DNA of 64,000 bases from Phanerodontia chrysosporium. Lineage: Eukaryota; Basidiomycota; Agaricomycetes; Polyporales; Phanerochaetaceae. The position numbers and the translations under genes were made by a program. The DNA lies in the NCBI GenBank assembly GCA_001910725.1, contig MJGA01000003.1:868001-932000 (forward strand). Reading direction: 5' to 3'. Positions 7,344 through 50,300 of this stretch are shown one piece after another. The notes under the pieces are model-generated. The model did no database searches. It saw nothing but the letters and a program-made list of their open reading frames with translations, and was not told the origin of the DNA. The first letter of the stretch is position 1; each line of letters starts with the position of its first letter.

Positions 7344-7553
7344 ATTTCTGATTACCCGTGTACAAGAACTTGACAAAGGCTCCGAAATACAATGCACATG
7401 CGCCGGCGTGGCCCCAGCAAGCGTCAGCGTGAACGATTTAGATTGCCATCTATCGCTCATCTGAGCGCTCGTGATTACCTTTGGCTGGTCTATATGAACC
7501 AGACCAGACAGGTGCGTAGACCCTCACTATTCCCCACTTCTTCCTGCGCCACC

Positions 7554-8915
7554 ATGTCTATGGCTACAAACAAGACCGACGTTCCTCACGAACTCCTCCG
7601 CCACATTTTCGAATGCTTGCCAGAAGACAAGCACACTCTGTCCTCCTGCGGTCTCGTATGCAAGGCTTGGGAGCCTGCAGCTCGCCCTGTGCTCTTCCGC
7701 GAGGTCACCCTCTATCCTGATGTGGTCGGGGCCACCGCGCATCCACAATATCCGGAGCTCGAGATCCCTGACTGGAAGTCCGCCGCGCGTGCGTTCAGCC
7801 AGATGACTCACCTGGCGTCTTACGTGCAGGTCCTACACATCGAGGGTGGCCACCTGCCCATGGAAAAAGAGATGCTCGACGAGTACGGAGAGGTCGAGAT
7901 CGAGCGTGGCGAAGATGGCACAGAGACCGCCACGCGCCTCAACTACTGCTCCATCGATCTCGCATCGCTGTACGCCATCGTGAAGGCGCTCCCAAACCTG
8001 CGGAAAGTCGCCTTCAACACTCTCGCCGTAAAGATTGTGCCGGTCCCAGCGCTGGAGCCCGTGTGCATCGACGTCCTCGAGATGCACGACGCCGGCACCG
8101 CCAAGGGCGAGAACCCGTTCGACATCCTCAACATCCTGCGCCCCAAGAAAGTCGATCTCGACATCTTCCACAGGCCGGGAAGCGACGGGGCGTGGCCCGA
8201 AGCCCATATGCTCCCTGACTCCGCCACCACCGATAACTGGAAGGTCCGCGGCGACCCCAGCGCCGCACCCCTCATCCGCGGGCTCGCGGCCTCGTCGCAC
8301 GGACGCATCACCTCCCTTTCCGTCGATCTGAAAAACGAGAAGGACCTCGTCGCACTCGCCGAGTCGCTCGCTGTGTTTGGGCCCGCGCTCAAGGAGCTCA
8401 GGCTCGATCTGTGGGACGCCACATGGGTGGCGACGCCGCACGTCTTTCTAGCGCGTAAGTCCGGCTAAACCTCGGAACATAGCTGCCCTACTCACCTCTT
8501 GCACTCGACAGCCGCGTTCGAGGAGGTCTGGTGCGACGCCTTTTCGCTCGCTGAATGCAAGGGATTACGGTCCATCGAAATAAATGTCAAGATTGGATTT
8601 GGGGAGGACTCTATGGCTCTCCTGGCATCCGTCGCGCGCGTCTGCTCTACGCTGCCACCCACGATCTGCTCCGTCCACCTCATTCTTGATCTCGCATACT
8701 TCGATCCGGAGGGCATTGACGATATGCCTTGGTTGATGATAGGTTTGGCGTTGAGCTCAAAGACGAAGCACCCCGACCTTGAAAAGGTAACCCTCACCGT
8801 CTTCGACGGAGACGGAGACATGGAAGAGGAAGATCAGGACAACATGAGACAGGCCATCGTGTCTCAACTTCCGGACCTTGAAGAGTGTTTGCACATTGCA
8901 TTCGCGCAAGAGTGA
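7554..8915 (+). CDS. F-box domain protein
   Basis: Predicted substrate-recognition subunit of an SCF ubiquitin ligase. The N-terminus has an F-box-like segment (PHELLRHIFECLPEDKHTLS, then CGLVCKAWEPAARPVLFREV), followed by a region with leucine-rich spacing typical of the expanded agaricomycete F-box families. One 57-nt intron (8455-8511) joins FLA to PAFEEVWCDAF; the joined protein is about 434 residues with an acidic stretch (DGDGDMEEEDQD) near the C-terminus. The ATG at 7554 follows CGCCACC, a good initiation context. The target cannot be inferred. Such genes are numerous and fast evolving in mushrooms, so the neighbourhood tells little. Confidence 0.8.
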
Positions 8916-19650: not shown

Positions 19651-20934
19651 ATGGTACGTGTCCCCCTGAAGCCAACTCATTGATATGGTGCTCACTGTGC
19701 GTAGGACAACTTCATCAACCTCGGCAAGCAGTTCCTGGAGAGCCAGGCTGGCGGGCACCAGAACCAGGGCGGCCAGGGCGGCGAGCGTACGTGACGTTCC
19801 CACCACGAAGCACCCAAATCCTGATCTCCCCTCTCTTGCTCCGCAGAACAAGTTGGTCGCCAGGGCGGCCATGAGTACAACTCGCCCGATAACCAGCCTC
19901 CGCGCGGCTACCAGGGCGGCGAAGGCGGCTATGGCCAAGGAGGCTACGGCGGCGGCAACCAAGGCGGCTATGACGGCGGCAACCAGGGCTACGGAGGTGA
20001 CCAGCAGGGCTACCAGGGCAGCCAGCAAGGCGGCTATGGAGGTGTCCAGCAAGGCGGATACGGAGGTGGTCAGCAAGGTGGCTATGGAGGCGGCCAACAG
20101 GGCGGCTATAGTGGTGGAGGCTATGGCGGAGGCTCTCAAGGCGGCCAGGGTGGCTACGGCGGTGGGGGATACGGTGGAGGCCAGCAAGGTGGCTATGGCG
20201 GCGGTCGCCCTCACTGTGAGCACATAACTCGCCTCGCTCTGGCTCTATACCTGACTTGTGTCTTCAGTCGACCAGGACGAAGTTGTCAACACCGCCGCGC
20301 AGCATGCCAGCAACGATGGCCAAGACAAGTCTCTCTTCTCTTCCGCCCTTGGCTTCCTGAACCAGCACCAGGTACGCTTTGTCAGACCATCACCCAGCGC
20401 AGATTCTGATTAGGCCGGCTTCCAGGACGAGCACGAACGCCCCGTCGACGAGCAGCACGTGCTCGACGCGCACGACAAGGCATACAACCAGGGCTCAGCG
20501 GCCAGCCTGAGCGCAGGCTCGCTCGGCTCCGCAGCAGCGATGCAGGTACGCCGATCCTATCGATCCCATCATTCCTTCCGCTTAAATAGCTTGCACTAGA
20601 TCTGAAGCAGTTCACCTCCAGCGGCGGCGGTAGCGGCGGCAGTGGCGGCGGCTCGAGCTCGCAGCTGATCAGCATGGCGATGGCCGAGGCGACGAAGCTG
20701 TTCGACAAGTCTGGCGGTGCGGCGTCCGGCAACAAGCAAGACGCGGTCAACAGCGCTGCGATGACCGTCATGAAGCTCCTTGTGCAGAGCAAGTTCAGCT
20801 CGACGACCGGCGGGTCGAACTCTGGTGGACTGGGCAGTCTCATGGGTTTGGTAAGTGTCTGATTCGTCATCTTCTTGCTGTTGCTGAAGCAGTCTCTTGT
20901 CTCCAGGCGAGTAAGTTTATGTAAACAGGATTAT
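19651..20934 (+). CDS. bfg: Beta-flanking protein of the A mating-type region
   Basis: Homologue of the conserved gene that borders the A locus in Coprinopsis, Pleurotus and many other agaricomycetes; its molecular role is unknown. Exon 1 codes only the initiator Met (ATG directly followed by a GTACGT donor); exon 2 starts at 19705 with DNFINLGKQFLESQAGG. The middle is a Gly/Gln/Tyr low-complexity region built on repeats of QQGGYGGG (about 19895-20215). The C-terminal half is better conserved: DQDEVVNTAAQHASNDGQD, LFSSALGFLNQH, and after a Gly/Ser linker SQLISMAMAEATKLFDKSGG and NSAAMTVMKLLVQSKFSS. The last exon supplies ASKFM and the stop at 20934. No signal peptide or membrane segment. The call rests on the domain pattern plus position about 5.5 kb from HD1. 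Confidence 0.88.
19895..20215 (+). repeat. Minisatellite-like GGC/CAG/TAT tract coding Gly-Gln-Tyr repeats
   Basis: Imperfect tandem units of about 24-27 nt encoding variants of QQGGYGGG. This is coding low-complexity within bfg; repeat number is likely to vary between strains. Confidence 0.75.
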
Positions 20935-21227
20935 GGTCGGGAATGGACTCGAATTTATCGTGAGGATGTACTTGTACTATGCAGAGGTGTACATGGAATA
21001 GAAACAAATGCTTCCACATGTGATTTGGCTTCTCAGGTGGGGTGATCTGCTCAAACCCATGAAAGCAAAGCCACATCGCCAGCTTTACATAGCAGACAGT
21101 CCATGAACCCAGAGTCATTGGATATCGTTTCATGAAGTCGATACTGCATAGCAACGATGATAGATACTAATGCACATATAATGACAAGCATCCAAAGCCA
21201 GGTATACACAGTAGGTATGGATAGCCG

Positions 21228-21729
21228 TTAGTGCTTCTCAGAAGGGACGAAGTCGTCGTCGTCGTCATCGTCATCCTCGTCGTTCATAGCACTGAAATCG
21301 ACAACCTCTGTGCTATCCTCGTCCTCGCTTTCGTCGTCGTCGTCGTCGGTCTCGACGGCTTCGTCTTCGTCGAGTTCAGGCTTGGGGTGCTTGGTGTGGT
21401 CGATGAGCTGCTTGTAGGCCGCGTCGAGGCGAGCTGGGCCGCGTGCCGGTGTTCTTCGGCGGCCTGGATCTCCTCTGCAAGGTGCGGATCAGTGGTGGGA
21501 TATATAGGTCGAGAGGGGAGTACGAGCACCTTCTGAGGCGCCGCTATTGCGGATGTCGCGCAGAGCCTGATCGGCGTCCTCGACTGCCTTCTGAGCGTTG
21601 TGCACGACCTGCTCAGGCGTGCTGGCTGTTGACGTGGAGGGTCAGCGTCGGCGGCCTCAGCGCTGCGAAGAGAGGGAGCCTACCTGGGTCGCAGGCGCAG
21701 ACACATCCGCAAGAGTGGGTGGTAGGCAT
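21228..21729 (-). CDS. Small acidic protein, unknown function
   Basis: About 128 residues in three exons. The start is MPTTHSCGCVCACDP, with four closely spaced cysteines; after a 60-nt intron comes STPEQVVHNAQKAVEDADQ, then after another intron EEIQAAEEHRHAA, ARLDAAYKQLIDHTKHP and a highly acidic tail (ELDEDEAVETDDDDDESEDE, DEDDDDDDDFVPSEKH). Two GT-AG introns fit well. The frame needs one extra base near 21434 (CAG-GCTCGC) to join HAAQ to ARLDA. The acidic tail suggests binding of basic partners such as histones or ribosomal proteins, but this is only an inference. A TATA box sits 84 bp upstream. I do not recognise a family. Confidence 0.6.
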
Positions 21730-21812
21730 AACTGGTGGACGGTGGGGGCTGGGGCAGAAGGTGGTGGTACGAGGTGAAGAGAGCTTTGGCTGTCCCAGCA
21801 GGGCGGCCACGG

Positions 21813-21820
21813 CTTTTATA
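21813..21820 (-). promoter_or_regulatory. TATA box of the small acidic protein gene
   Basis: TATAAAAG on the minus strand, 84-91 bp upstream of the ATG at 21729. Confidence 0.55.
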
Positions 21821-22389
21821 GGGACGTGGGACAAGCACCCGTGGTGCGCGCTCGCAGTTGAACTCCGCTTGGTGCAGCGCGACGCGTCGTGGAACCTTAA
21901 TGAGCGGGGACGCGTCTGTCACGTGCTCGCGGTGCTCGCGTCACGGCCTCAACGCGTCCATGTGGTACGCAGTCTAGGCCTTGTCCAAGGCTGTGTTGCA
22001 AATAGACAGGGACGTGAGATGTGAGAATGGGATGAGCCGCGTTTGTCGTGGCCCCGCGCGGTGCGAGGAGCTCGACGAGCATGCCGTTACGTGGCTACCG
22101 ACCAGCGAAGGAGTGAGGACTGTTGGCAGATAAGCTTGCTTTCGGGAAAGCTCTCAATAACGTACAAGCAGTTCCGTTCGTGCGCATGGAACGGCACCCT
22201 GGCCGCAAGACGCGAGACGGACGTCGACAGCGAGCGCGAGGAGACTCGGAAATTGCCGTTACGTGTGACAAACGTGACGTAACGCGTCAGGTCTCAGATC
22301 TCAGATCTTTGGTTACACCGCTGCGGAAAACTGCGCGCTCTGCAGACAATGCACAGGTGGACACTACGGTGAGTATCGCACCGACCGTG

Positions 22390-23470
22390 TTCGAACAAAT
22401 ACTCGTACACTATCAATCTGTGCCTGCGCGTGCTCTCCTTCCCCTGCCTGCCCGTCCTGCGACTCGACAAGATCGTGGACGACGTGCCGAGCGTGTACAA
22501 CTTTGTCCAGCGGCACTCCACGGTCCTCGCTCCGCGTTGAGGCGCTCCTGAAGCGCATTGACGGAACGGGTACGTGGCTCGGCCACGACGAAGTCGACAA
22601 AGAACTGCTCGACCAGCCGTCAGGTCAGGAGTTCCAACTGGGCGACCCGATTCCTGTCGCTATGGACATGTACTGAGGCCCGTTCAATCGTTTATCTTTC
22701 GGCGATGACCACTCACTCCTAAGAGCGTAATGTGGACGTCGTTCAAGGAGTCGCCTGTGCCACGGTACGAGTGCACCGCTCTCGCGGCCTATTTTCTTGA
22801 ATACGAGACCAGGGACATAGACATCTTTGAGATCATGGATATCATCGCCAACGTGGAGCCGCTATTCTCGAGTGTGCAGGAACTGCGCGTCGCGAGTCAA
22901 GTGCCCACGATCCATCCTAATGCAGAAGACAACTTCCGCTGTTTCATGGTACGGGTCCTCACAGTCTCGGCTAATCCTGTATGAGGCTCAATATCGTGCA
23001 CACAGGAACTCCTCGCGTCCTCGCTGCAATAGTGAGAGGTGCTGCGCAAGCTCAGCCTGCATCCGCCTTTCCCCATTTCCTTGTGGACGTGGACGGACGA
23101 GTAACCAAGCAGAACCAAACCCTTACTCGACGACGTCAATCCTCTCGCGTTCTACGACACGAGGCACCACAAGCCATGGACGCTCGCACAGTTGCACGAG
23201 GTATATCATGACGACGACACTGAACTCGCTGAGGCCCCAGTCTGCCAGGCCCTCTGCATTGACGACAACAAGCCGCTGGACGAAGACGACGAGAAGCTGC
23301 TCATACGTGCGTGGGAGGCGCGGCACAGCCTTTCCGTGGCCAGGATTGTACGGCAGGTTACACAGAAGAATACGAAGTCGAAGGAGGTTGAATGGTATGT
23401 CATGGATAAATACACAGACTTCCACATGCGGTGGCCCTGGAAGATCTTCCGCAAGATGGTGGGTCTGTGA
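22390..23470 (+). CDS. Unrecognised gene, frame interrupted
   Basis: Plus-strand coding-like segments follow one another: LRLDKIVDDVPSVYNFVQRH near 22460-22520, RVEALLKRIDGTGTWLGHDE with QEFQLGDPIPVAMDMY near 22540-22675, ALAAYFLEYETRDIDIFEIM near 22770-22830, and DPDTRHH-like FYDTRHHKPWTLAQLHEVYH then EDDEKLLIRAWEARHSLSVA, ending MRWPWKIFRKMVGL at 23470. They need introns (one good GT-AG pair near 22950-23005) and about three single-base corrections. The first part has leucine-rich spacing like mushroom F-box/LRR proteins; the rest matches nothing I know. The 5' end is not defined. It may be a degenerating or lineage-specific gene in the variable part of the mating-type region. Confidence 0.4.
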
Positions 23471-25687
23471 ACATGGTCCTTGGGATCTGACGTGGACAGG
23501 CTGTGTTCCAGGTAGACCTACACCCTTTCCCGTGTAGGTCAGGCAGGAGCCGAATTGTGCGCTGAGGCATGCAGGAGGCATGTTTTCGTAGATCGCAAGT
23601 TGTATCACGTACTATGGGATATGCTCTCGGGATAATAATGCGTTAGCTGTGGCTGGACATGCATACATGCCGCCGGGGTGTACGACGTCATCTAGACGTA
23701 AGTCGAGAATATTGAAACTGCACTCGTGCAGGGTCGGCTGCACCCAGGCAAAGCAAAGCAGTTACAGCGTGTATAGGGAAGAGGCAAGGCTGTGATTGAC
23801 GTAGGCCGCCATGCTCATTCCGCACCGAACAGCAGACAGAAAATGTTTGGTGACCTCGAAAGCAGGGGTGATGTAGGGATATATCGATGATATACGAGAG
23901 GGGCATCCGCTAATTCTAGGTAGGAGCTGGCTGGGCTAAAGGCAAATGCCGGCCGAGGCGGAGGCGAGCGGTGGGTCGCAATCACGGGCGCGGCTGCGTC
24001 GGGGCATGCTTTGTTCTCTCCGTCGTCATCCGAACGCCACAGAGCTGTCCGGCTGCGCTTTCCCCGCTACTTCGACATGCCTCGATGTTTCTGCCTGTCC
24101 TCGCTTGTCTTCCCACCCACAGATCTCATCAGAGGATCTACCTGCAGGTCAACACAGCCTGCGAGGCTCGGCCTGCGCTCTAACGACTTGGCAGCGTGCA
24201 TCGCGCATGGACCTGGCATACCGAAGCTCAGACACGACAGGCTGGCTCACTTCCTTGTGCTCTCGCTTGGCTGCCATGGCCAGGTGACCGCCAAGTCTTG
24301 CAACCAGCGAGGACAGAGCACACGTCTCGTCCTGTCGCTCATTGAAAATTGCTGTCGTCCGGCGCGTCTCGACGCTGATCTTCTAATGAAAGAAGGCTAT
24401 CTCTAAATTCTCGAATGCGCCGTTGCGCTCAGCGAGCGGTCTGAGCCCTTTGTATTTTGGATCGTGCCTTGAATGTGACGGACGCCGCTACGCTAGGCCG
24501 TCTGCGATAGCGCACTAGAGGACCTCGGGACACGGTCACTCTTCGAGAACCTTCTCATTATCTGAAGGACCCTTGAGGTGAGTGCTCCCCTCGCCGCAGA
24601 ACAATGCCGGCTCGTTGCTTTCCCTTTCACTAGGCAGATGTAACTCTACCCTTGTCATGACGCTGAAGATGTTCTCCGGCACCTGGCAGAAGGACCCTAC
24701 CGACCTGCGCAGCCCGCAACGGCCACGCAGCCCTCCTGATATCCGCAATCATGTCTACGCATGCCCTACACCATCTGCCAGTGGAGTCGCACCGCTCGCG
24801 AAGCCCCTCGCGCGGCGAATTCACGGTAGCGGAAGTGCCATTCCACGTCCAAAATCGGGCCGAGACGCGCATCTGCGGGAGCTATCGCTGACGTAAAGTA
24901 GGGGGCTTCCAGGAGCCAGGGGGATGATGTACGGAAAGGTCTAATTCGCGCACCGCGTCCCGGAAATGGCGCCGTCAGGACCCTACGGGCCTACGCTCGT
25001 CTTGCGCGTCACTCCCACAGACAACACCGCCGACTCACGCAGCGCGTTTTTCGCCCCTGCGAGAGGGCTGCCGTTGATCGCCTGCACTGTCTCTCCCAAG
25101 AGAGGGGCGTGAAACGCCTCTTTAGGGCTTTCGACGCGCCCGTTCAACGGCCATGCTGGGGCCAACTCCCGCACAGGCGCACGACCACCGAGCACCTGGC
25201 GGCGGGTGCAGAGACTCTCATCACCGACTGGACCTAAGCATGAGGTCATATTTCCTGCTGTTCGTTGAGCATGGCTTGATCTGGGCAGTGCAACCTTATA
25301 AATGACCATCTCCAGCGCGCCGCCGTCTTCTCTTTCAGCCCTCCGTCGTTGGGAAGTGCTGGCCGAGCGGACGAGCCGTTTGTTCTGGCAGTTTGGTTAC
25401 TCAAAGGTGCTGTGCTCGACGTGCGCATTGCAAACCCCGACGCCGTTATGCTGTATCTTACTGTAGCTGTTGTCAGCAACCACACGACGCGTGGTGCATC
25501 GCGCGGTGCTGGCGCTATGTCAGGGCAGGTAACATATCCCCTGCGGGTACGCAGTTGCCGTGAATCGCACAATGCAAGATGCCATCCATATGGCCGGAAG
25601 CCTTCCGACCATATGATAGATTCGATGGTCAGTCTGTAGTCGTCTACATATCACTGTGCTTACGCCTGCATGTAGAAGACAATCGAT
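23471..25687. other. Gene-poor interval inside the A-locus region
   Basis: About 2.2 kb without a convincing gene. Short open stretches exist (for example around 23950-24400, 24580-24890 and 25350-25640), but none show family motifs or clean intron chains, and I see no homeodomain (WFxNxR) remnant on either strand. No tandem or inverted repeats are obvious by eye. Confidence 0.45.
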
Positions 25688-26031
25688 ATGAGATTCTCTG
25701 GTGCTGTGAACTGCGATCGCGGAGTCCTGTCACTGGTGAACGCCATCGAGGCTCGATTAATACACACGCTGATATCGTTATAGCCCACTGTCCAGGAGGA
25801 GGAAGAGATAGAAATGGAGGACACGGGTTACGAAATCACAGTGAGCACTGAAGAGCGTGGGGACAATGCCCGTAAGGAACTGCCCACGCCGGCGACAATC
25901 GCCGTTGGGAACTTTTTCAACATCATCACTGTACGTCTATTGCCAAAGCCTGAGATTTACGCTTATTCTCCCCATGGCAACTGTAGACTTTTACACTTGT
26001 ATTGCGTCGTAGCATACAACTCAGAAGATAA
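25688..26031 (+). CDS. Candidate small spliced ORF (79 aa) near HD1
   Basis: A three-exon model is consistent with local rules: exon 1 25688-25735, exon 2 25784-25930, exon 3 25987-26031, with GT-AG introns of 48 and 56 nt. The product starts MRFSGAVNCDRGVLSLPTVQ, continues with an acidic block (EEEEIEMEDTGYEI) and ends with a basic, hydrophobic segment (GNFFNIITTFTLVLRRSIQL). No known domain is seen. It may instead be the 3' part of a larger gene or chance. It lies about 470 bp from the HD1 stop. Confidence 0.33.
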
Positions 26032-26497
26032 GTTAGAGATGTCCAGAAGGTCTGCCTACCATGACAGGGTACGCAGCTCCACTACTGTCAAGGGACTTAC
26101 CCAGAGACAGTTATGCGGGCCAGCGTATTGACATACCATCATTGTCTATTCGGAGAAGAACTCGGTTGGTTTGCTTCTTGGTCGCGACTTACTATCGGTA
26201 TTGCGCTCCAAAACTGAAACCCACCCGTAGGAAGTGTCGTAGAATTCTCTACTGTCACCCTTGAGTAGTCTGTTCGTATGCGTTCATTCTGCATACCATT
26301 GTTTGTGATGCCTGCGGGTTGACGGCGCTTGAACAGTTTCAAGCTCTAGGATTGCATCGAATACGTCCGAGCGAGCTACATGGCGGAAAGTGCGTGCTGA
26401 CGATGCAATGTCGTCCGAAGCACGGACCACGAAGAAATTAAAGGATTGGCAGTTACATATCATACGAACCGATGATCCTGTGAAGCATCTGTAAACA
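26032..26497. other. Intergenic: 3' flank of HD1
   Basis: No gene seen. Holds the HD1 transcript end and the end of the candidate small ORF. Confidence 0.4.
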
Positions 26498-28548
26498 TTA
26501 TGAGGTAACGTCGAAGATTACAGCAGATGCATGAAGTGCTGGCTCTTTCGAAATATCTAGGTTATCTTGAATTATGTGGCGGTACGCTTGAAGGTCATTT
26601 GGGGCGTAAGTCATAATCCTGAGCAACAGAGCGGATGACATACCAGAGGATTCTGAGAACGATGTTACTGGATCAGCTGAGGCGCTGTGGAGCGGAAAAG
26701 TAGGACAATCGAAGGCATCGTCCCACAAATCACCCTCAAAGTTCGGAAAGGATGTGATTGTACTTGCAAGCAGCAAATCAAATTCTTCCCTTTGCTTCGC
26801 AGACAGTGGAACAGACTGGCTAGTTGGATACCCGCAACCATGCGGATGAAGGTGAAGAGATGTTGACGCCTCGCCTGATGGTGACGAACTTGATTCAAGC
26901 GAGCCTGACAAGATGCTGTCGATGACTCCCATTAGCGACTCGGGTCGTAGCAGATCCGGGCCAACCGGAGGGGATATGGGCTGCGTGTAGCCCGATGACC
27001 ACATGTTATTTGTCTGCCCATTGTGTGAATGTAGGGATACGACTCGCCTGGCTGATGTCCGCTTCTGCGGACGGCTGCACAGTTTCGCTGGTACCCCACC
27101 CTGTTTATTTCAGCACAGGAAGGATAGGACGCAGACGCTGTACTCACAGGGTGATAGGTCGTGTTCCGCCACATCTTGCGATCGTGCACTGTTTAACTCT
27201 GTCGTCGTAAGGCTTCGGCGGCGGCTCGCGACGTGGCCCTCGCGGTCGGTCGAGAATGGGTGGAGAAAATTAGAGATGTTGTGGGACCTCTTCGAGGTAA
27301 CTTGTAGCCCATGCCGGAAGCGCTTGGTTGGAGGACCGATATAAGATGCAGATCTTCGGTGTCTCCTGGGCAATGAAGACAATGCAGGAGCTGCTGCATC
27401 CGGACTGGAAGGGATTGCGATGTGGCTCGAATGCCGGTCATTACAATTCATGACAGGTAGCGACTCCGCGTACAATGGTACCGGTCGCTCATCTTGATGG
27501 CGTTTATGAGAAGGATAAAAGCAGAGGGGGTCTTCGCCAGGCGTTCTTCATGACGATCAGAACGGTTTGATTCAGCCAACGACGTCGTGAACTCATACCT
27601 TCGACGTTTCCTGCGCTGCTGCGGAAGAGGGTTCGTCGCGCATACGGGAGATGGCGAGTAGCTCTCATCTTCACTGTCCGACGTGAAGATCAGCGACGGA
27701 GGGTGGGAAGGAGGCGATGGCTGTGACGAGACATTTGGAAGGGTGTGTGACTTGTCGATAGAAGATGACGAACTCAATGAGCTCTCGCAGATGTTCGCGA
27801 AGGCGAGGGATGACGTTTCAGGGGCTATATGGGTACAATGATCTGGGTAGAGGCATTGTAGCTTAGAGACAACAGATAGCAGCTCTGCGGCGACTTCTGG
27901 TGAGACATCGTCGCTCTGACTGCCTTGGAAGAGGATGCGTTTGGCTGCAGCGATAGCTAGAGCCCGAGACCCATTGAAACGACGCTTGACGAAGGAAAGC
28001 CAGCCGATGTGCTTGCGAACAGACCTGAACCAACTATCCACTGTGTGCAGAGACACCCCAGCCTCCTGTGCCATAGCCGACTTGAGTGAAGCTGTCGGAT
28101 ATGGGTTGTGCACGTTTCGGAGTATCCAATCGTATGGCAGAGCGAGGAAGGTTGGGATCAATGCGGGCGATGTCTGATTCTGAGTGACGGGTGTATGCCT
28201 CGAAGTAGCCCGCTCAGAAACACCGGTCAGAGGCTGCACGATGTCTCCGAGGGTCATTTGTGCCAGCAGATCTTCTATTTCCGTCATCGCCGCTGTTTGG
28301 ATTCTGTCGGCTTCCTCCTGGGCCATCGCGAGGCTTTCGCCCAATATCGCAATCCTGAGGAACACCGACTGAGCAATGCGGTCGAGATCGTCGTCCACAT
28401 TACCAGCATCCAGAGCATGTCGAAAATCCTGGCAAAGAATCTCCCACTTCTGCTCGAAGGCTGCTACTGCTGTAGCATTTCGTGCTGAGAGGAATTCATC
28501 TTCGGCATCTATGAGACGCCTTTCAAGTGATTGAGTTGCGTATACCAT
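26498..28548 (-). CDS. HD1: HD1-class homeodomain mating-type transcription factor
   Basis: One partner of the A mating-type heterodimer. My splice model has three exons: 27599-28548, 27148-27545 and 26498-27087, with introns of 53 and 60 nt, giving an intact 645-residue protein. The start MVYATQSLERRLIDAEDEFL (ATG at 28548) matches the N-terminal dimerisation region of HD1 proteins. The homeodomain spans about residues 130-190 (LPYDWILRNVHNPYPTASLK, then VDSWFRSVRKHIGW); its recognition helix reads WFRSVR instead of the canonical WFxNxR. Next come a Ser/Pro-rich segment, a basic cluster (QQRRKRRR) across the first junction and a second basic bipartite cluster (TKRFRHGLQVTSKR), both possible nuclear localisation signals. 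The long Ser/Thr/Pro-rich C-terminus is typical of HD1 activation regions. Divergent from HD2. Unlike many neighbours it shows no frame break. Confidence 0.93.
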
Positions 28549-28847
28549 GGCATACAGATAGTGACGAAGGAACAAGAGTGCGTGTACGTTGCGTTTGTCG
28601 TGACGAGAGATGACGAGTGAGCAGGAGGCAACCTGAAGGATATGTCAATAGTGCCGGCGTCGCCTGCGTTTCCCACCATGAACCGCGCTTTGTTGATCTC
28701 GGGGAGGATGATGCCTAATCCGTCACGGTAACACCGGCCCTCCTTTCGCACGATAGAGTATCTACATGGAGGTTCAAACGCTCACGGTCCCGACGTCCAC
28801 AGGTACTACGTTCACCAACGGACCTCCTTCCTCGGCCGTCTCCTTCC
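28549..28847. promoter_or_regulatory. Shared divergent promoter of HD1 and HD2
   Basis: A 299-bp gap between divergent HD1 (minus) and HD2 (plus) start codons. It must hold both core promoters. No canonical TATA box is evident on either side. Confidence 0.7.
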
Positions 28848-30531
28848 ATGGCCACCGCCGACTTGCACAGGCTTCACACCCTGCAGCATATCACCAGAAA
28901 AGCTTATCGCCTGTTGGACATCACTGGTGGCGAGTCTGCGAAGTTTGAATCCTCCGAGTCCAGTCCCAGTTCCTCATATGTCGCATCTGTGAAGTATTCT
29001 TTGCCTGATCCTCTACCGATCACATCCTACCTCATCGCGCAAGGGTTGCAACCCGCCCCATCCGAACAGCTGTCCCAGGCCTATCTTCACCATGCTCGCG
29101 GGCTGAAGGGCGCAAGCGAGAGGAAAATGCAAGCCTCTGCGTACTCTTGGCTGAGGGGTTGTCACGATCCGGGACAAGACGTTCAGAAGCAGCTATCTAG
29201 TCTGTATGCGGCGTACTATCGCTATTATACTTCGACCCTCCAACGCTGGGTGGATGTCTTGATACAACAATTCCAGCGCAAGCTATGCGCAGTCAAGTCG
29301 AGGATACCCGGCAGCTCCGCCTCTAGATCTTGCGAGAGGCGGCCTTTCATACAGGTGAGTTCTCATCATCAAATACCAAACCAAACATAGTTGACACATA
29401 TGCAGGAGGCCATACCTACGCTGGAGCAGGCGTTTCAATCAAATCCCTATCCTAGTCGGCAGGACAAAGAACGTCTGGCCGAAAAGACTGGCATGCACTT
29501 CAAACAAATACATGTTTGGGTCCGTGCCTTGTTGTCAGCTAAATCACAATGTTCTGACAAGCTTCTAGTTTCAGAACCGTCGAAACCGAGTAAAGAAAGA
29601 AGGGCGTGACTTACGCAAGACTACCATCTTTCATCCCATGTGGCAGGAAGCGTCCTGCGTCGTGTCTCTATTCGACGACGGCCGCGTGACTGCAGGCATC
29701 ACTGAGTACGACCGAGACATATCTATTGTATTGCCGGACAAACATGCAGCAGCGGTTTTGGTGAGTAATGTGCTGTACTGAATTGCGAACCTCCGCTTAT
29801 AGTGGTGGTGTCAGCGACCTTCGCCCGCGCACCTTCTCAATCCCCTCGACCGATTAGAATTGGAACGACCAGCTCACGCGTATCCTGCCCCCTTCCCTCC
29901 TATCTGCCACTACGACCCGTTCCCACTTGACGAGACTAGATCGTTTCAGGTACCCTGGCTTCGTTCTACCTCTCTGCAACATGGGACTCGTATGTCCGAC
30001 GCAACGGTAGACAGCCTTATCCAATCGTTTGGCAAATTGTCCTTGGACGACGACGGTTTGGTCGATTGTAAGACCAACAAGTTCCACCCCGCACTCACAC
30101 ACGATTCATGTGGGTTGAAGAGTAAACCCCTAGACGCACCGCTAGCCGCGCTTGTCCGCCACAGCCCAGTCCTAGCGAACTTCCAGCCTATCTTGCATGC
30201 CTGTGGTCTGTCACCAACCCACTCCTCATCATTGCCATCATTTGGCTCGCCATCCCTGCTGCAGGCCCCATTCCGGACTTCCCATGGGCATTCCATTACG
30301 GGGCGGAAACGTCTCGATATCCTTCACCACGCGTCGTCTCATACACTGCGCGACGAAGCACACCCGTATGCAGTCTCGCATAGATCTCGAACGCTCACTT
30401 CAAGACTACGATGTAATGGTCCAGTCCTTCCAAAGATCATTGCTGCGGCGACGATAGACCAGTTACCCACCAACGCTTCAGCCTACTCACGCGCTATCCC
30501 CTCTGACCACTCAATACCCAATGCAACGTAA
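28848..30531 (+). CDS. HD2: HD2-class homeodomain mating-type transcription factor
   Basis: The other partner of the A mating-type heterodimer. Four exons (28848-29354, 29406-29519, 29569-29760, 29815-30531) with GT-AG introns of 51, 49 and 54 nt give an intact 509-residue protein. The N-terminal 169 residues (ATADLHRLHTLQHITRKAYR onward) form the dimerisation and specificity region. The homeodomain (about residues 168-220) reads EAIPTLEQAFQSNPYPSRQD, AEKTGMHFKQIHVWFQNRRN and RVKK, with the canonical WFQNRR recognition helix; an intron splits it exactly at W-FQNRR, a common HD2 intron site. The C-terminus is Ser/Thr/Pro-rich and without recognised domains. In the compatible dikaryon the HD2 homeodomain provides most DNA binding. 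Confidence 0.95.
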
Positions 30532-30921
30532 CACATACCAATCAGTGACGATCGGCACCCCCATGCCCATGCGACATCGTACACATGTCTGCGATCACCC
30601 CCCAAATGTCCGATCTCATCTATCGACGGAAACGTTCCTCCAGAACCTTCAAGGTTCCATGGCATGGCTATCATTATTTACTACTCTATGGACTGTATGG
30701 GGCTGTATTCTCGCTGGTAACTTACTCATCGGTATTATTTCGACCACCCAGCTCGGCTGTTTCAAGACTAAGTCAAGGGCACCAACTTCATAGCCCGACC
30801 GCTCCGCTGGAAAGCAGTGTGCTGAACGCGCTCCAAGATACTGGATGCAGGTGCTATATTCGTCATCCCTCGTTCTTCAACATGGAGCTTTCAGTAGGCA
30901 GCGATCCAAATGACACCAAGA
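30532..30921. other. Convergent gap between HD2 and MIP1
   Basis: Both neighbouring genes end here. A plus-strand ORF (30585-31031) runs through the gap and into MIP1 but has no family motif; I treat it as chance. Confidence 0.4.
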
Positions 30922-33428
30922 TTAATGGCGTCCCGGGAAAGACACTTCATCCTCTATTTTCCATCTTCCAACCTCAGCCATTGACCCTGCGTCACCGCCT
31001 TCTAATTCTGCTGCGTGCAGCAGGGTGCTAACCATCTTCCATGGGTCTCTTCCGCCGCCATACCGCAGAATTTCGTTCTTATACCGTTCTCCCGTCGTCC
31101 GGTTGAGCGGATCGTGTGCGAAGAGTTTGCGCCAGACACGCGATGCGATTGCCCGATCGAACAGATACGAATAGTAGGTCGCACCGTACCCGAAGAGATG
31201 ACCGAATTGCGTCTGCCACGAGGTGCCCGGCACGTAGGGAATGAGGCCACGGTATTCGTACAGCCGCGCAAGGGCGGCTGTTGAGTCGAACTCTGGTGAT
31301 AAAGCAGCAGGTGAGTGGTAGATTTGGTCGAGGGCAGCTAGAAGAATTTGAGTGTGCGTGTCAATGGAGCGACAAGGATCCTCTTGATGATGCGTCGATT
31401 CCGCCAGTATATTGCCCTTGATGTCGAACAGCGAGAGCACCGTTGGCGACTGCAGGAAATGCTCCATGAGGATGGAAGGCAGTTCAACGAAGTCTGTAGC
31501 GCAGCGCGTCCCCGATACGTTCTGATATTCTGTGCGTCCAATCATGGCTATTGATAAGTGGTGAACGCTAAGCTCAACAGTACAGCTTAGGGTTGGAACT
31601 CACAATGCATCGCATGTCCCATCTCATGGAACAATGTAAGAACTTCGTGCCACGCAAGAATTGTCGGACCCCTATGGACAGTCGGGCGAGTAAACTCGCA
31701 CAAGAGGACTACGACAGGCAGCTGGAAGATCCCATCGGTACCTGGTATTCTTGCCCGGTGAGCGTTCTCGAACTTGTCGGATAGCTGGACTGCCTTCAGG
31801 GCGTTTTCGTCCCAGACGTGCTCGAAGTCCCGGTGTGCGTCATCGTCGTCTGTGCGACGCGAACAGCGGACGGTGTAGTGCGCTGCGCCGCTGGGCTTGC
31901 CTCGCCGCGCGAACAGGTCAGCGTAGATCCATCCGATCACCCCGGACTTCTCGTCTACGACTTCTAGTTTCCGAACATCAGGGTGCCACACCTCGCCTGG
32001 CGTGATTCTAGCGAGGCGGAGGGATATACCATATAAGTTGCGGAAGAGACGCGACAGTCCCATGAAGACCGTGCCTAACGTGAGTGGAGGGAGTGAAACG
32101 GGCGGAGCGGGGGGTTCAGGCGGGCAATAATAGTCTCTATCCCAAGCTTGTATAGTAGGATATGGGTGCGTGTGAAGATGTTCTTGCTTCCGTAGACTAA
32201 GGGCGCGTAGTGCTCTACGGGCGTAGGGGCGTGTGTGATCCAATAGTGCATTCAAGAAGTGAGCGACATTCTCTGCACCCTTCAAGTCAGCCAAGCGTTG
32301 CTACGAGCCGCAGAATGGCTGAACTTACCAGGAGATTTCGCCATTTTATCGGTCAAAGTCATATGTGCGAAACTGGGCTTCCCAACCAAGCGGGCCAGTT
32401 CGCCACGGGCACGAAGAAGGCTCTCTAGAATCCGAATTTGCTCAGGCGTACTCGAGTTGGCGGCCATGTAGACTTTTCGACGCGGTTCTTCCTCCGGCGC
32501 AGAATGCATGATCATCTGAGCTTGCAACGACCCGGGGTAGACAACCAGGTCTCGCTGAGTAAACTGCGCCTGGAGTCGAAGTCGCGTCCCCATAGCCTTG
32601 TCCTTCAGTCCCGTGAGCTCGTGCGGCTTGATGACAGCCGGCGGGCGCGGACTGGCCGTCTCGTTCAGGAAGAGCCGTCCGAGGTGTAGAATCTCCGACG
32701 ACAGGGAGACAAACTTGTTGCGTTGTTCAGGCGGGAGGTTGATTCCGGACTTCTCAAAGTCCCTCCAGAAGATGAGAGCAGTCTCGCGAGCTTCTGGTCC
32801 GAGGACTGGGACACTTCCGGGTCTGACAAGACCGCTCGTAGGACCTAGAGAAATGTGTTGAATGGGGCGTTTCCAGTTATGAAAAAAAAAAAAAACAATA
32901 TACGTACGTTGTACAAGTCTACATCTGTGTTAAGCACGTTCATGAACTCACACATCTTCTCGTAGACGTGCTCCGCGCTCTCCGTCCATGCAGGGTCAGG
33001 GTGAGCATTCCGAACAAGCTCAGCAAGGTCTATAACGCCGCATAGAAGATCACTGAGCCTGTCCAGATGCTTCACGACCTTGAAGAGCTCTTCTCGGAGT
33101 CCTTCGTCTTGTGTATCCTGCGGGTGAGGAGTTGTGCACGGCAGAGGGTAGAATCCGCCAACTCGACGAAGGCCGCGGGAGTGGTGAGGAAATCATGACC
33201 AAAAAGACCGGTATAAGCAAGCCCTGAACTAGACTGTGGTGGTTGGGGGATATCGAAGTCCGCTATGATGTCGACATCGTCACTGGTCGCTGGCGAAGGT
33301 GCGCTGACAGTGGTAGCGGTTCGTGTGCCGCGGATGGACAGATCTTGTTTCGCGCGTAGACAGCGGCGAAATCTAAATGCATGGCGAGTCTGCTTCGAAA
33401 GCACATTCCGTGCGGTATGTGCGAGCAT
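30922..33428 (-). CDS. MIP1: Mitochondrial intermediate peptidase
   Basis: M3-family zinc metallopeptidase that trims an octapeptide from imported precursors in the mitochondrial matrix; the best known physical marker of the A locus. The start [20 protein letters not shown] is a basic, acid-free presequence, preferred over an in-frame ATG at 33638. The catalytic segment is [13 protein letters not shown] (HExxH, near 31605-31635), followed across an intron by [20 protein letters not shown] and [10 protein letters not shown], the usual MIP block with the third zinc ligand region. The C-terminus ends [18 protein letters not shown]. One intron contains a 14-A run. Two single-base losses (near 33117 and 32809) break the frame at GG/CC or GGG/CCC runs. 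Convergent with HD2. Confidence 0.95.
32882..32895 (+). repeat. Homopolymer run of 14 A in a MIP1 intron
   Basis: Poly(A) on the plus strand, poly(T) on the coding strand, placed just after the donor of an intron. It probably serves as an extended polypyrimidine-like stretch or is a neutral microsatellite. Confidence 0.8.
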
Positions 33429-35931: not shown

Positions 35932-36184
35932 GCCTTAAATTGCCCCGACATATCCTTCTGCCGTCACGCAGGCGATATACAACAGCAAACAACTCCCGTG
36001 CCAGACACGTTGTTTACATCTTTCTAAACCCTAGACAAGCTTGCTTCCTACGCACGGACCTTGCTCGTACGCCAGTCACCCTCATGTGCCTTCTGATAAC
36101 GTTCATGTGGCCCAGCGAGGGTAATTTTGGCAATGAAGCGTATATTCCAATAAGAAATAGTAATACAGCGAGATATACATGATA

Positions 36185-36734
36185 TTAACCGGGTCCAACC
36201 TGTCGTCGACTTGAGCGTGCTGAGAGCGGAGTCGCAAGAGGGCCCACATACCTTGGGAATGTCGTGGTGTTCGCTGAGCGCTTCGAGCTTGGAGTTGAAC
36301 TCACTGACCCTGTCCTTGTGGGTCTTCGCAGCGAGTCTGGCAACCTTCTCTGCCAGCTGCAACAAATGAGTCACAGGTGAAGCACCAACATCGCACGGAA
36401 CACGTACCCGCTTGCGCTGTACCTCCTCGAACCGCTTCTCAGCTGCTGTCTTCCTCTCGCTGCTTACCACAGACGGTGAGGCTCTGCTGCTACCTGCAGG
36501 AGAGGCTGTCTTCCGCTCTTCTTCCCGCATGGTAGCCTCCAATTCTCTCAGGCGTTGCTTCTCGACCTCGTCATCCTTGTCTTTAGACTTGCTCTTGGAC
36601 TTCTTCTTCCTGTTGATAGATGAGTACATGCAACATGTGAGATGGAGAACAACGCACTTCTTCACGATTCCGCCCTCGACGACCCCGCCCTTGAGTTTGA
36701 GGGAGCCGCCGGGGCGAAAGTCATAGTCTGACAT
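36185..36734 (-). CDS. FAM32A/DUF1754 family protein
   Basis: Small basic nuclear protein of about 130 residues; the human homologue associates with the spliceosome. It starts MSDYDFRPGGSLKLKGGVVE followed by a Lys/Ser cluster (KKKSKSKSKDKDDEVEKQRL), a conserved KTAAEKRFEEVQRKR and a C-terminal helix VARLAAKTHKDRVSEFNSKL with SEHHDIPKVGPG. The last junction is a GT-AG intron that joins IPK to VGPG and puts the stop at 36185. The order and sequence match DUF1754 proteins along the whole length. Divergent from the TMEM115 gene with a 233-bp gap. Confidence 0.9.
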
Positions 36735-36967
36735 CGCCCCGTAAAGCTGAAGATGACTGTCGAAATGAGAGGTGAATCTGTCACAACGTCACGGAACTGT
36801 CGCGGACCCGACCTCCGTCACGCCGGATAGGCGCGCCTCCTGGGCAAAGTGCTCACTGCGTCCACCACCGCAGCCGACACAACGGTCGTTCTCGAGAGCC
36901 CCAGCTGGTCCTTCTGCTTGGCTTTGGTCTAGCCGGCTATATTCTTGGCTCGTTTCTCCTGTCAGGC

Positions 36968-44555: not shown

Positions 44556-44817
44556 GGTGGGCGGGTAAAAGGAGAGTGGTGACGAGGTGTGCTGAGTGGT
44601 CGACGTGTAAGTTGTCCGCGAGGGCGTTTCGGCGTCTCTAGCTGGGGCACACTCACGTGGCAAGACCCGGGGGCGGCACCATCCTCGTCCGCATTTCTGG
44701 CACTGGCCTCTGTCTATACTGACTGCTCTGCAAGGCATGTTGGCTCGCCGCTCCATGTTAGCCCATACTCATCCGAAGTACTCCAGCTTGCGGTACTTGT
44801 TGCCTACATGCACTTGC

Positions 44818-47139
44818 ATGTCCTGGAGGATCTTTCGTAATGCCGGACGTCCCACTCTGGTAGCCCTCCTGCGCCGAGCATCGCCTGCGTTATTCCCACT
44901 CTCGACAACATGTGGCCGAGGTCCCCTCTCCCCCGTGGCCCGATTCTCATTCCTGAAACCTAGCGTACTGGCGGACAAGCACGGCACAAGTGTCACCTCA
45001 CCTCGCACCGCCCTCGATGCTTTCGTGCCTATGCTACGCGAGTCCACCTCGGCAGAGGCTGCCATCAGGACTCTCCACCAGTGCATCCCCGTCTTGAAGA
45101 GACTACCTCCAGCCTTTCATCGAGATGCCCTCTTGGCAGTCTTCAAGTCTCTCGCGTTGCACGGTGAGCTCCAAGTCTTGAGGCATACGTTGAACGCGAC
45201 GCTTCACCTCTTCAAGCTGGAGATCAAGGAGGAGCTTCACGCCGCCGTTGTGGATGGTCTATTAGAAGGCAGACATCATACTAGAGCGATTGCTTGGCTA
45301 CGGGATATGACAAACTTCCCTGAAGCTCGCTGTGTTAGTATCAAGCTGTGGAACCACGTCTTCGAAAGCTGTCTCACATGCGAACAATACCCTCTTGTAT
45401 GGAAGAGCATGCGCCACATTCAAGATACCCCCTTCCTAAAGCCGGATGTGCGGACATACTCGTTGTACTTTCAGGCTATATTCTTTCGCTGGCGTCCTGG
45501 CACTCCGCCCTTGGCCTTCATTCAGTCATCTCTTGAGCGCATGAAGGCGGACGACATCCCTCTGTCCGACGACATTTTGCAGGCACTTCTCCATGGGTAC
45601 AACAGCGTGGGTGACAGATTCACCGCTGCTCGGGTCCAGCGCGTGTATGCTAGGTTGCGCGGCAGCAAGTCACTTCATGATAGCAGCGGTGGCAGCACAA
45701 AATCCGCTGACATAAATCCCGTGAAGCCTGCATTAGACCATGACGCTGAAGACACGATATCTGCTGTCGATGCCACCTTTTGCAGCAAGAAGCTGGCTAG
45801 TCTACTAGCAACTCGTCGAGACAACGTCGCGCGACGCGTGCTGACGCAAATGCTCTCCGCAGGCTTCAGGCCTACATCTTCCACCTTGGACGAACTCGCT
45901 CCGTACCTGCGCGATTCTAAAGCACTCGCCTACTGGGAAGGGGCTTTAGATGTTAGTGCCAGCCGCATTGCCTGGAGTATCATCTTGCGAAATGCTGCAG
46001 AGGCGGATACCACAGAGACTGTCCTCGCTACCTACCGCGAACTCCTGGACCGCAAGCTTGTTCCCTCGTCCGCCGACATTTCGTGTGTCCTCATGGCACT
46101 CTGCTCCAGCAAGATTCGGCCGCCCACGGACTCCGCGATTCGCGAGGCTATTCACATTTTTCGGGAGTATGTCAAGCTTACTTCCGAGTTGGAAGACCAT
46201 CTAGTCCAGGACGACCTTCCAGCGTACAACATCCTCATTCGAGCTCTTTGCTACTCCATGAACCTCGAATTCCATGCGGTCGCTGTATCCATGCTCGAGG
46301 ATCTCCATGCGCGGGGACTATCTGTCGACTCTGAGACCACGCGGTCCTTCATCATCCTCTTCATGCGCGTCGCCCCGGACGCAGACATGGCGTTCAGGTT
46401 CTACAGGAAAATGTACCGCTCACCCGACGGCAAAGTCATCCTCGACCAGAAAGGTTTCGAAGCCGTGCTGAACACCTTCTGCGAGCTCTGCCTCAATCAA
46501 GGCCAGTCCTCGGGCCTCTACCTCGCCATCGTCCGCGACATGCGGCTTGCGGGGTACGGCATCACCGCGGTCACATACACCATTCTCCTGCGGCGCCTGA
46601 GCCACCTGCTGCACGTCGCGCGGCGGGACCGCGCGCTGACGGCGGAGCTCGCGGCGAGCGTGCGGCGCGTGCACAACACGATCACGGTCGACCCGACGCT
46701 GCAGCCGGACACGGCGCTCTGGAACCAGCTCATGGACACGTACCAGCGCGCGGGCTGCTTCCACGAGGCGTACGGCATCTGGGAGACGCTGTACCTCTCG
46801 CAGCAGCTCGACAACACGAGCGTGAGCGTCATCCTCGATGCGTGCGGATACGCGGGCGCGGCGGCGCTCGCGATCAACACGTTCGCGAAGGTCTACGAGT
46901 CGGGGTTCAAGCTCAATCAGCGGAATTGGGAGACGTGGATCGAGTGCCTGTGTCGGTTGGGGAGGTTGGACGATGCGGTGAAGGTGTTGTGTCTGGCGCT
47001 GCCGAAGGAGAAGGCTAAGGGAGAAGGGGTGCATCCGACGAGGGCGATGGCGAAGCACATCTTACAAATTGCTGCTAACCAGGGACGACAGGACGAGCTT
47101 CGTGCACGCATAAGAGCTGTCTTGCCTAGACTTGTGTAG
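44818..47139 (+). CDS. Pentatricopeptide repeat protein, mitochondrial
   Basis: RNA-binding helical-repeat protein expected in mitochondria. A single long exon of 773 residues. The start MSWRIFRNAGRPTLVALLRR looks like a mitochondrial presequence (Arg-rich, no acids); an in-frame ATG at 44737 would add 27 residues. Repeated 35-residue helical hairpins are visible, for example WNHVFESCLTCEQYPLVWKS, YNILIRALCYSMNLEFHAVA, VTYTILLRRLSHLLHVARRD and WNQLMDTYQRAGCFHEAYGI followed by NWETWIECLCRLGRLDDAVK. Likely role: processing, stability or translation of a mitochondrial transcript; the target is unknown. No frame break. The 3' half (46500-46950) is strikingly GC-rich compared with the 5' half. Confidence 0.85.
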   Translation: MSWRIFRNAGRPTLVALLRRASPALFPLSTTCGRGPLSPVARFSFLKPSVLADKHGTSVTSPRTALDAFVPMLRESTSAEAAIRTLHQCIPVLKRLPPAFHRDALLAVFKSLALHGELQVLRHTLNATLHLFKLEIKEELHAAVVDGLLEGRHHTRAIAWLRDMTNFPEARCVSIKLWNHVFESCLTCEQYPLVWKSMRHIQDTPFLKPDVRTYSLYFQAIFFRWRPGTPPLAFIQSSLERMKADDIPLSDDILQALLHGYNSVGDRFTAARVQRVYARLRGSKSLHDSSGGSTKSADINPVKPALDHDAEDTISAVDATFCSKKLASLLATRRDNVARRVLTQMLSAGFRPTSSTLDELAPYLRDSKALAYWEGALDVSASRIAWSIILRNAAEADTTETVLATYRELLDRKLVPSSADISCVLMALCSSKIRPPTDSAIREAIHIFREYVKLTSELEDHLVQDDLPAYNILIRALCYSMNLEFHAVAVSMLEDLHARGLSVDSETTRSFIILFMRVAPDADMAFRFYRKMYRSPDGKVILDQKGFEAVLNTFCELCLNQGQSSGLYLAIVRDMRLAGYGITAVTYTILLRRLSHLLHVARRDRALTAELAASVRRVHNTITVDPTLQPDTALWNQLMDTYQRAGCFHEAYGIWETLYLSQQLDNTSVSVILDACGYAGAAALAINTFAKVYESGFKLNQRNWETWIECLCRLGRLDDAVKVLCLALPKEKAKGEGVHPTRAMAKHILQIAANQGRQDELRARIRAVLPRLV

Positions 47140-47398: not shown

Positions 47399-50300
47399 CT
47401 ATGCAGAGTGGGACGCTGTCTCTTCGACGGTGGGACAGTCGCACTGTGGACAGTTGATCAGTGACGAGTTCGACGTGATCAAGATGGAGATGACTCACAA
47501 TGAGGTTCAGGTCTCCGAACGCTATAAAGACCGATGTCATGAGAAGAACTCACCCAAACAGCACGGATGCACTCACCATCATCGATACGCGAAACAGTGG
47601 GCCAGAACTTGCGCTCGCGGAGCCAAGGCACGGGGTATGCGGCCTGCTGGCGAGAGTAAGGCCTGTTCCACTCGGAGGCCATGAGGACGTGCATCGGGTG
47701 CGGCGCGTTCTTGAGGAGGTTGTTGTCCTTGGGCTGCTTGCCCGTGATGATGTCCTCCGCCTCCTTGCGGATGGTGATCATCGCGTCGCAGAAGCGGTCG
47801 ATCTCCTCGAGCGACTCGGACTCGGTCGGCTCGATGAGCATGCACGTCGAGATCGGCCACGAACACGTTGGCGGGTGGAAGCCGAAGTCCTGCAGCCGCT
47901 TCGCGAAGTCGGTGACCTTCAGGCCCGCGGCCTTGTCGAACTCGGAGAGGTCGATGAGCAGCTCGTGCGCGACACGCCCGTTCTTGTTCTTGTACCGCAG
48001 GCTGTAGTAGTCCTTGAGCCGATGTGCCATGTAGTTCGCGTTGAGCAGTGCAGTCTTCGTCGACTCCGAGAGACCGTTTCCGCCGAGCATCTTAATGTAC
48101 GCCCAGGAGATGAGAAGGATCGAGGCGCTGCCGTACTGCGCGGCAGACACGGCGTTGATGGCCTTGTCGCCCCCGACAGGGACGACAGGGTGGGTCGGCA
48201 GGAAGGGTGCAAGGTGCTCTGCAACGCAGATGGGGCCGACACCAGGTCCACCGCCACCGTGAGGGCTATAGGGAACAAGAATCAATTCCTGCATATACAC
48301 CCAGAGTTGAAAGGACTCACATAGCAAAGGTCTTGTGCAGGTTCATGTGGCAAACATCACCACCGCACTTGGCCGGGTTTGTGAGACCAATCTGCGCGTT
48401 GAGGTTGGCACCATCGAGGTAAACCTGGCCACCGTTCTCGTGAATGATGCGGCACGCCTCGGTGACACCGTCCTCGAATACACCGAAGGTCGAGGGGTAT
48501 GTGATCATGAACGCGGCAAGGTTGTCCTTGTACTTTGTCGCCTTCTGCGTCAGATCCTCGAGATCGAGGCTGCCGTCGGCAAGGGATTTCACGGGAACGA
48601 CCTTGAGGCCAGCCATCACAGCGGACTATGACGCAGGAGTCAGTCAGGGGAGCCATAAATATAGCGTAGCTAAACTCACCGCAGGGTTGGTTCCGTGCGC
48701 ACTAACCGGGATGAGGCAAATGTCGCGGTGGCCCTCGCCACGAGACTCGTGGTAGGCACGGATGACATTGAGGCCAGCGTATTCGCCCGCGGCTCCTGAG
48801 TTGGGTTGGAGCGAGCACGCGTGGAAACCGGTGATCTTGCAGAGATCTTGCTCGAGCTCCTTAATGACCTGGAGATAGCCCTCGACCTGGTCCTTAGGGG
48901 CGAAGGGGTGCACGTTGCTGAACTCGGGGAACGTCAGCGGGACCATGCTGCTCGTGCTGTTCAGCTTCATCGTGCAGCTGCCGAGCGGGATCATCGCGTG
49001 CTCAAGACCGAGGTCCTTCGACTGCAGGTGGTAGATGTACCGCAGCATCTGGGTCTCGGAGTGGTGCGAGTTGAACACGGGGTGGGGCAGGAACGAGGAG
49101 GTGCGGCGCAGGGGCTCGGGGATTGCCTCAGACTCGACAGGAGGAAGGTGGAGAGGCGAAACAGCGGGCTTCGAAGCCGCGGCAGCGAAGACATTTGCGA
49201 GCTTGATAACCTCCTCGATACCGACACTTTCGTCCAGGGTGAGACCAACAAGCTTATCGTCGATCCGGCGGAGGTTGATACCAGCGGCCAGCGCAGCGTC
49301 GTGGACTGCAGAAGCTGTCTTCGCGGGGCCCGAGACGTCGATAGTGAGCGTATCGAAGAATTCCGCGTTGGTGACCGTGTATCCCAAACGCTCGACCAGA
49401 GCCTTGAGGATTTGTGTGAGCGCGTGGACCTTGTTGGCGATGCGCTTGAGCCCCTCGGGACCATGGTAGACAGCGTACATCGCGGCCATGTTCGCGAGCA
49501 GCGCCTGCGCAGTGCAGATGTTGCTCGTCGCCTTTTCACGACGAATATGCTGTTCACGAGCTAGACAGTATTGTCAGTGTGAGAAAAACATTACAAAAAC
49601 GCGAGACGTACTTTGCAGTGCCAGGCGATAAGCCGGCTTTCCCTGCGCGTCGCGACTCAGGCCAATGAGGCGCCCGGGCATCTTGCGCTTGAGGCTGTCG
49701 ATGCACGCGAAGAACGCGCCGTGCGGGCCACCGTATCCTGCGGGCACACCGAACCGGGCCGAGTTGCCCACGACGACGTCCGCGCCCCACTCGCCGGGAG
49801 GCTTGAGCATCGTGAGCGCGAGAAGGTCCGTGGCGCACACGACGAGCGCCTTCGACGCGTGCACCTCCTGCGCGAGCGCGCCGAAGTCCTTGATGTTGCC
49901 GTCGACGTCCGGGTACTGGACGAGCACACCGCACAGGTCGGCGCGCACGGCCTCGTCCTTGAGCGCGGCTGACGCGTCGCCGACGACCAGCTTGATGCCG
50001 AAGCCCTTTGCACGCGTCTGGAGAACGGCGAGGGTCTGTGGGAGCACGCCGTTATCGACGATAAACGTGCGCTTCTTGGAGCCGGTGTTGCTGAACGCGA
50101 GAACCATGCCCTCGGCCGCGGCCGTAGCCTCATCCAAAAGCGACGCGTTGGCAATGTCCATCCCGGTCATAGACATGATCATCGTCTGGAAGTTGACCAG
50201 CGACTCGAGCCGTCCTGTGAGGGCATGTCAGTGGCCGCCACATCACGCTTCGCGCCACATCAAGCCTACCTTGAGCAATCTCGGGCTGGTACGGGGTATA

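Follow-up and report, generated by a model that had tools for sequence, protein, structure and literature searches.

The question raised by this stretch of the Phanerodontia chrysosporium genome is whether the two homeodomain genes lying on it constitute the mating-type locus of the fungus and, if so, whether they represent a new allele. In Agaricomycetes, HD1 and HD2 proteins of different haplotypes form a transcription factor by pairing through their N-termini. A MAT-A-type locus reportedly controls mating compatibility in P. chrysosporium, going by the title of the 2011 paper of James et al. The window, the whole stretch of 64,000 nucleotides that was analysed, corresponds to positions 868001-932000 of contig C69 (2,497,588 bases) in an assembly of 39.0 Mb and 145 contigs. 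The locus is almost certainly MAT-A (HD) of this species, the species being assigned from the HD proteins and the STE3 pattern. The assembly has it as a single copy, with the allele pair deposited as E7DAG8 and E7DAG7 or one very closely related to that pair. The locus is real, ordinary and already known, the new element being a revised set of introns for HD1. The genes are arranged as follows.

19651-20924, plus strand: bfg (beta-flanking gene), from a splice model and a DUF7721 match
26498-28548, minus strand: HD1 (A1 mating-type protein), from the spliced contig P0002 and a Homeobox_KN match
28549-28847, no strand: divergent intergenic region between HD1 and HD2, 299 bp
28848-30531, plus strand: HD2 (A2 mating-type protein), from the match to E7DAG7
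30922-33428, minus strand: MIP1, M3-family peptidase, from Peptidase_M3 frames and position

A preliminary description, made from the letters of the window, had placed bfg, HD1, HD2 and MIP1 at these coordinates, and all four positions were reproduced. The order is bfg, HD1, HD2 and MIP1, HD1 adjoining bfg and being co-directional with MIP1. HD1 and HD2 are transcribed divergently, as expected of an Agaricomycete MAT-A locus, from starts at 28548 (minus strand) and 28848 (plus strand), leaving exactly the 299 bp claimed; this gap presumably serves both genes as a promoter region. HD2 and MIP1 are convergent, as had been described, and the distance from bfg to HD1, put at about 5.5 kb, is 5,573 bp between the two stop codons. 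The flanks also have the expected nature, one being an M3 peptidase (for mip) and the other a six-intron DUF7721 protein (for beta-fg). Gene content and order are observed directly and, together with the matches to A1 and A2 proteins, bear out the reading of the region as an HD mating-type locus between bfg and MIP1.

The bfg gene was modelled by hand as a spliced reading frame of 316 aa, which stays open as far as a TAA at 20922-20924 and contains six GT-AG introns, the first directly 3' of the ATG.

19654-19704, 19787-19846, 20216-20267, 20372-20413, 20546-20607 and 20851-20906, plus strand: bfg introns

Residues 153-235 of the spliced protein match DUF7721 (E 1.8e-19), which we take to be the beta-flanking family, and the unspliced frames have no Pfam match. 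Six introns, one of them after the start codon, are also given for beta-fg1 in an excerpt of a published account (PMC8305134). The N-terminus of bfg is expanded and rich in Gly, Gln and Tyr; at 19935-20202 of the window it is encoded by tandem units 24 and 48 bp long. On the other side, Peptidase_M3 was detected in three of the four MIP1 frames tested (30922-32929, minus strand; E 4e-47, 1.9e-47 and 5.9e-10), one of which matches thimet oligopeptidase and neurolysin in the PDB, and an EMGH stretch stands at an exon end. The fourth, 5'-most frame, with an ATG at 33428 and an Arg-rich start, has no Pfam match. The designation as a putative mitochondrial intermediate peptidase follows from M3 membership and position, the M3 subfamilies not being separated by sequence.

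The 5.6 kb between bfg and HD1 (20925-26497) has little recognizable coding sequence; a frame of 238 aa at 22821-23534 is without a Pfam match. A repeat or transposon filling this gap was considered and rejected, as 21800-26400 matches only itself in the genome when simple repeats are skipped. Scans of the window for tRNA and Rfam families found none. Farther out, the frames at 1611-2570, 7374-8465, 36051-36788, 44611-47136 and 48647-49573 belong to ordinary genes, with matches among them to RNA polymerase Rpb2 domains, an F-box-like domain, FAM32A, PPR repeats and the glycine cleavage P-protein.

The two homeodomain proteins are of the two kinds expected, a TALE-type HD1 that matches Homeobox_KN only and a classical HD2 that matches both Homeodomain and Homeobox_KN and contains WFQNRR.

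28015-28128, minus strand: part of the HD1 homeodomain (Pfam match; HNPYP stretch, TALE type)
29328-29598, plus strand: HD2 homeodomain (Pfam Homeodomain; WFQNRRNR), with introns 1 and 2 inside it
29355-29405, 29520-29568 and 29761-29814, plus strand: HD2 introns, in agreement with E7DAG7

Both matches exceed the curated cut-offs (HD1 Homeobox_KN, E 9.3e-9; HD2 Homeodomain, E 1.2e-16, residues 163-217). The HD2 model of 509 aa in the preliminary description was reproduced exactly, and its three introns agree with the deposited protein, which is of equal length and identical at 507 of 509 residues; no HD2 transcript was seen. Intron 2 splits WFQNRR between W and F, and the motif is intact in the protein. 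Helix 3 of HD1 reads WFRSVRKHIGW, serine replacing the asparagine of WFxNxR, and this motif is absent anywhere in the deposited HD1 protein (P0001, E7DAG8) and in P0002. HD1 may bind DNA poorly because this asparagine is missing. Exchanges at WFxNxR are known in HD1 proteins, and some are tolerated (PMC4101180).

The main correction concerns the exon structure of HD1, which had been described as an intact protein of 645 aa with two introns. The frame of that model is indeed open, but the product supported here is one of 585 aa with five introns. P0002, a protein from one contig of 1,992 nt (source 'lgn'), maps to the window with no mismatch over 585 aa and establishes this splice form, for which the Homeobox_KN match has E 7.2e-9.

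27546-27598, 27405-27473, 27101-27147, 26981-27047 (GC-AG) and 26587-26643, minus strand: HD1 introns, from P0002 placed on the window

The genomic sequence between the start and the stop codon measures 2,051 nt, more than the P0002 contig, which must therefore be spliced; the 'lgn' source probably consists of RNA assemblies. P0002 is backed by this single contig of 3 member sequences. Of the two introns proposed earlier, 27546-27598 agrees with P0002, whereas 27088-27147 has a different acceptor in it (27101-27147), and the chain lacked 27405-27473, 26981-27047 and 26587-26643. The deposited protein E7DAG8 has a model of its own with two introns (27405-27454 and 27088-27147), under which it shows 3 substitutions against the window; in contrast to P0002, it reads 27546-27598 as coding and places its other splice sites elsewhere. 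All three models have the same residues 1-317, comprising the N-terminus and the homeodomain, except for Q161R. The deposited entry and the preliminary description both depart from the single spliced contig, and the HD1 model needs correction.

It might instead be supposed that HD1 is mainly a two-intron protein of 645 or 646 aa, with the 585-aa form as a minor product of splicing. The open frame of the earlier chain is in keeping with this, as is the fact that E7DAG8 likewise has two introns, sharing 27088-27147 with that chain. The exact fit of P0002, necessarily spliced (1,992 nt versus 2,051 nt), to five introns argues against it, and so does the retention in the deposited model of 27546-27598, a segment with GT-AG ends that P0002 lacks. 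We thus consider a predominantly two-intron HD1 unlikely. Less likely still, and advanced as a speculation, HD1 might occur in several splice forms with differing middle and C-terminal parts, serving only in dimerization with HD2 and activation, with its activity set by splicing; this idea combines the five-intron form of 585 aa, the two-intron database form and a helix 3 without the DNA-contacting asparagine.

The preliminary description had further proposed that the haplotype probably has a new or rarely sampled specificity, which the comparison with deposited proteins does not sustain. In protein searches the spliced products match the A1 (E7DAG8) and A2 (E7DAG7) mating-type proteins of P. 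chrysosporium, both full-length searches having scored only the candidates that share most words (7,993 and 7,997). HD2 has the same length as E7DAG7 and is identical to it at 507 of 509 residues, the first 201 being without difference; the exceptions are K202E and K373E (window residue first). HD1 under the deposited intron model differs from E7DAG8 at 3 of 646 residues, Q161R, P487L and C578R (window residue first, numbered as in E7DAG8), and its first 160 residues are identical. The window codons at the five differing sites are CAG, CCC, TGT, AAA and AAG, and one transition suffices at each. These differences may be polymorphisms between strains, or one of the two sequences may contain errors.

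Alleles of HD2 are highly divergent within the species, as is characteristic of MAT-A. Two other A2 proteins of P. chrysosporium (P0004 and P0005) are 34% identical to E7DAG7, with 49 of 148 aligned residues (33%) identical in the N-terminus of each, and 36/57 (63%) and 29/57 (51%) in the homeodomain. Neither of two protein searches, with the full-length protein and with the HD1 region, found another A1 (HD1) allele; the latter, a search for distant HD1 relatives in which to compare the helix-3 asparagine, returned P0001 and P0002 only. In a study of Trichaptum, an excerpt of which states that HD proteins act as different types only if they are less than 86% identical (PMC8970355), a threshold is provided under which the window haplotype, if it holds here, would have the same specificity as the E7DAG7/E7DAG8 pair. 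A locus of new mating specificity would have to rely on the five differences from the deposited pair, of which HD2 position 202 lies within the homeodomain. HD1 1-160 and HD2 1-201, the parts thought to set specificity, are identical, and the HD2 identity of 99.6% is far above the level in that excerpt (PMC8970355), so that a new specificity is very improbable. On this comparison of sequences the allele is not new, being either known already or very close to a known one.

No second HD pair was found in the assembly: another A2 allele, used as query, gave 2 matches and HD1 gave 5, all of them at this locus; a second haplotype may have been collapsed or left out of the assembly. A profile search of the assembly gave three places for Homeobox_KN (HD1, HD2 and one on C33) and 11 for Homeodomain, one of them being HD2. 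A second HD1/HD2 pair among the other Homeodomain places was looked for and rejected in the six of ten that were read (L025, L026 and L027); the homeodomain places outside that reading are those on C91, C2 and C55, the second on C58 (L028) and the one on C33. Two of these three loci are on the contig of the window. At C69:566551-567756 (L026), three homeodomain matches lie within 1.2 kb, perhaps in one gene with three homeodomains, and at C69:934239-936695 (L025), 2-5 kb beyond the end of the window, there are two; none is HD1 or HD2. In four of these five homeodomains the frame breaks, by eye, after an 'LGM'-like stretch and before helix 3, which suggests a shared intron position. From these further homeodomain genes on the same contig it could be argued that HD1 and HD2 have a general regulatory role in development and are not mating-type genes, but the divergent HD1/HD2 pair, the flanking bfg and M3 peptidase and the almost complete identity with the named A1 and A2 mating-type proteins leave this notion practically no weight.

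Downstream of its homeodomain, in the C-terminal half, HD2 contains a second conserved block, which is proline-rich.

29869-29925, plus strand: second conserved HD2 block, PAHAYPAPFPPICHYDPFP, residues 290-308

Against two other alleles, residues 284-322 are identical at 27/39 and 26/39 positions, and the preceding residues 218-283 at 4/57 and 9/61. The best match to the 19-residue core of the block, taken from P0003, is higher than that of any of 100 shuffles in all 22 HD2-type proteins compared (P0003-P0024, P0003 included; in P0023 by a margin of a single residue), and in 0 of 12 others, namely two HD1, two Mycena and eight mammalian proteins. The possibility that the block is a new motif was discarded. 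Conserved proline-enriched regions of HD2 are already described as putative activation domains in an excerpt of PMC8970355, possibly referring to another block, and the present one is probably not new.

From what is known of the family, a mechanism may be outlined for the locus, where dimerization, discrimination of self from non-self and a transcriptional switch would be expected. HD1 and HD2 encoded by one haplotype would not pair with each other. Once two mycelia with different alleles have fused, HD1 of the one and HD2 of the other would pair via their variable N-termini, and the resulting heterodimer, with the HD2 homeodomain as its main DNA-binding part, would turn on the heterokaryon programme. 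The genes bfg and MIP1 are neighbours linked to the pair. The window is anchored by the MAT-A region, which is unbroken on a contig of 2.5 Mb and comes from a white-rot fungus used as a model. The analysis also types the haplotype and gives a corrected gene model for HD1, and it opens no new question on mating systems.

Compared with the common Agaricomycete locus, represented in an excerpt on Agaricus bisporus by the order mip1, HD1/HD2 and beta-fg (PMC8305134), the present one has the same four kinds of genes and a divergent HD pair. It differs from the A. bisporus locus, as given in that excerpt, in that the HD pair has the opposite orientation with respect to its flanks and in that bfg is present in one copy instead of two (PMC8305134). 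The inverted arrangement, with HD1 beside bfg, is already published for P. chrysosporium as well as for P. placenta and Pycnoporus, where it is interpreted as a probable inversion early in Polyporales (PMC4101180). The likeness to the inverted polypore loci of Postia placenta and Pycnoporus cinnabarinus is one of arrangement, drawn from the published description. As to the pheromone receptors, the positions of 14 STE3 matches indicate five genes, of which three lie on C59 (146.8-157.2 kb) and the others singly on C54 and C57; this grouping is our own, from exon matches, and counts for repeats and large families are lower bounds. The STE3 genes are thus located on other contigs, with no match on the 2.50-Mb contig C69, although contigs of one chromosome may still be linked. 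For bipolar P. chrysosporium, an excerpt of PMC4101180 gives five pheromone receptor genes, three of them clustered and two of non-mating type, and the pattern found here, three clustered and two single genes on contigs other than that of the HD pair, is the same as in that account.
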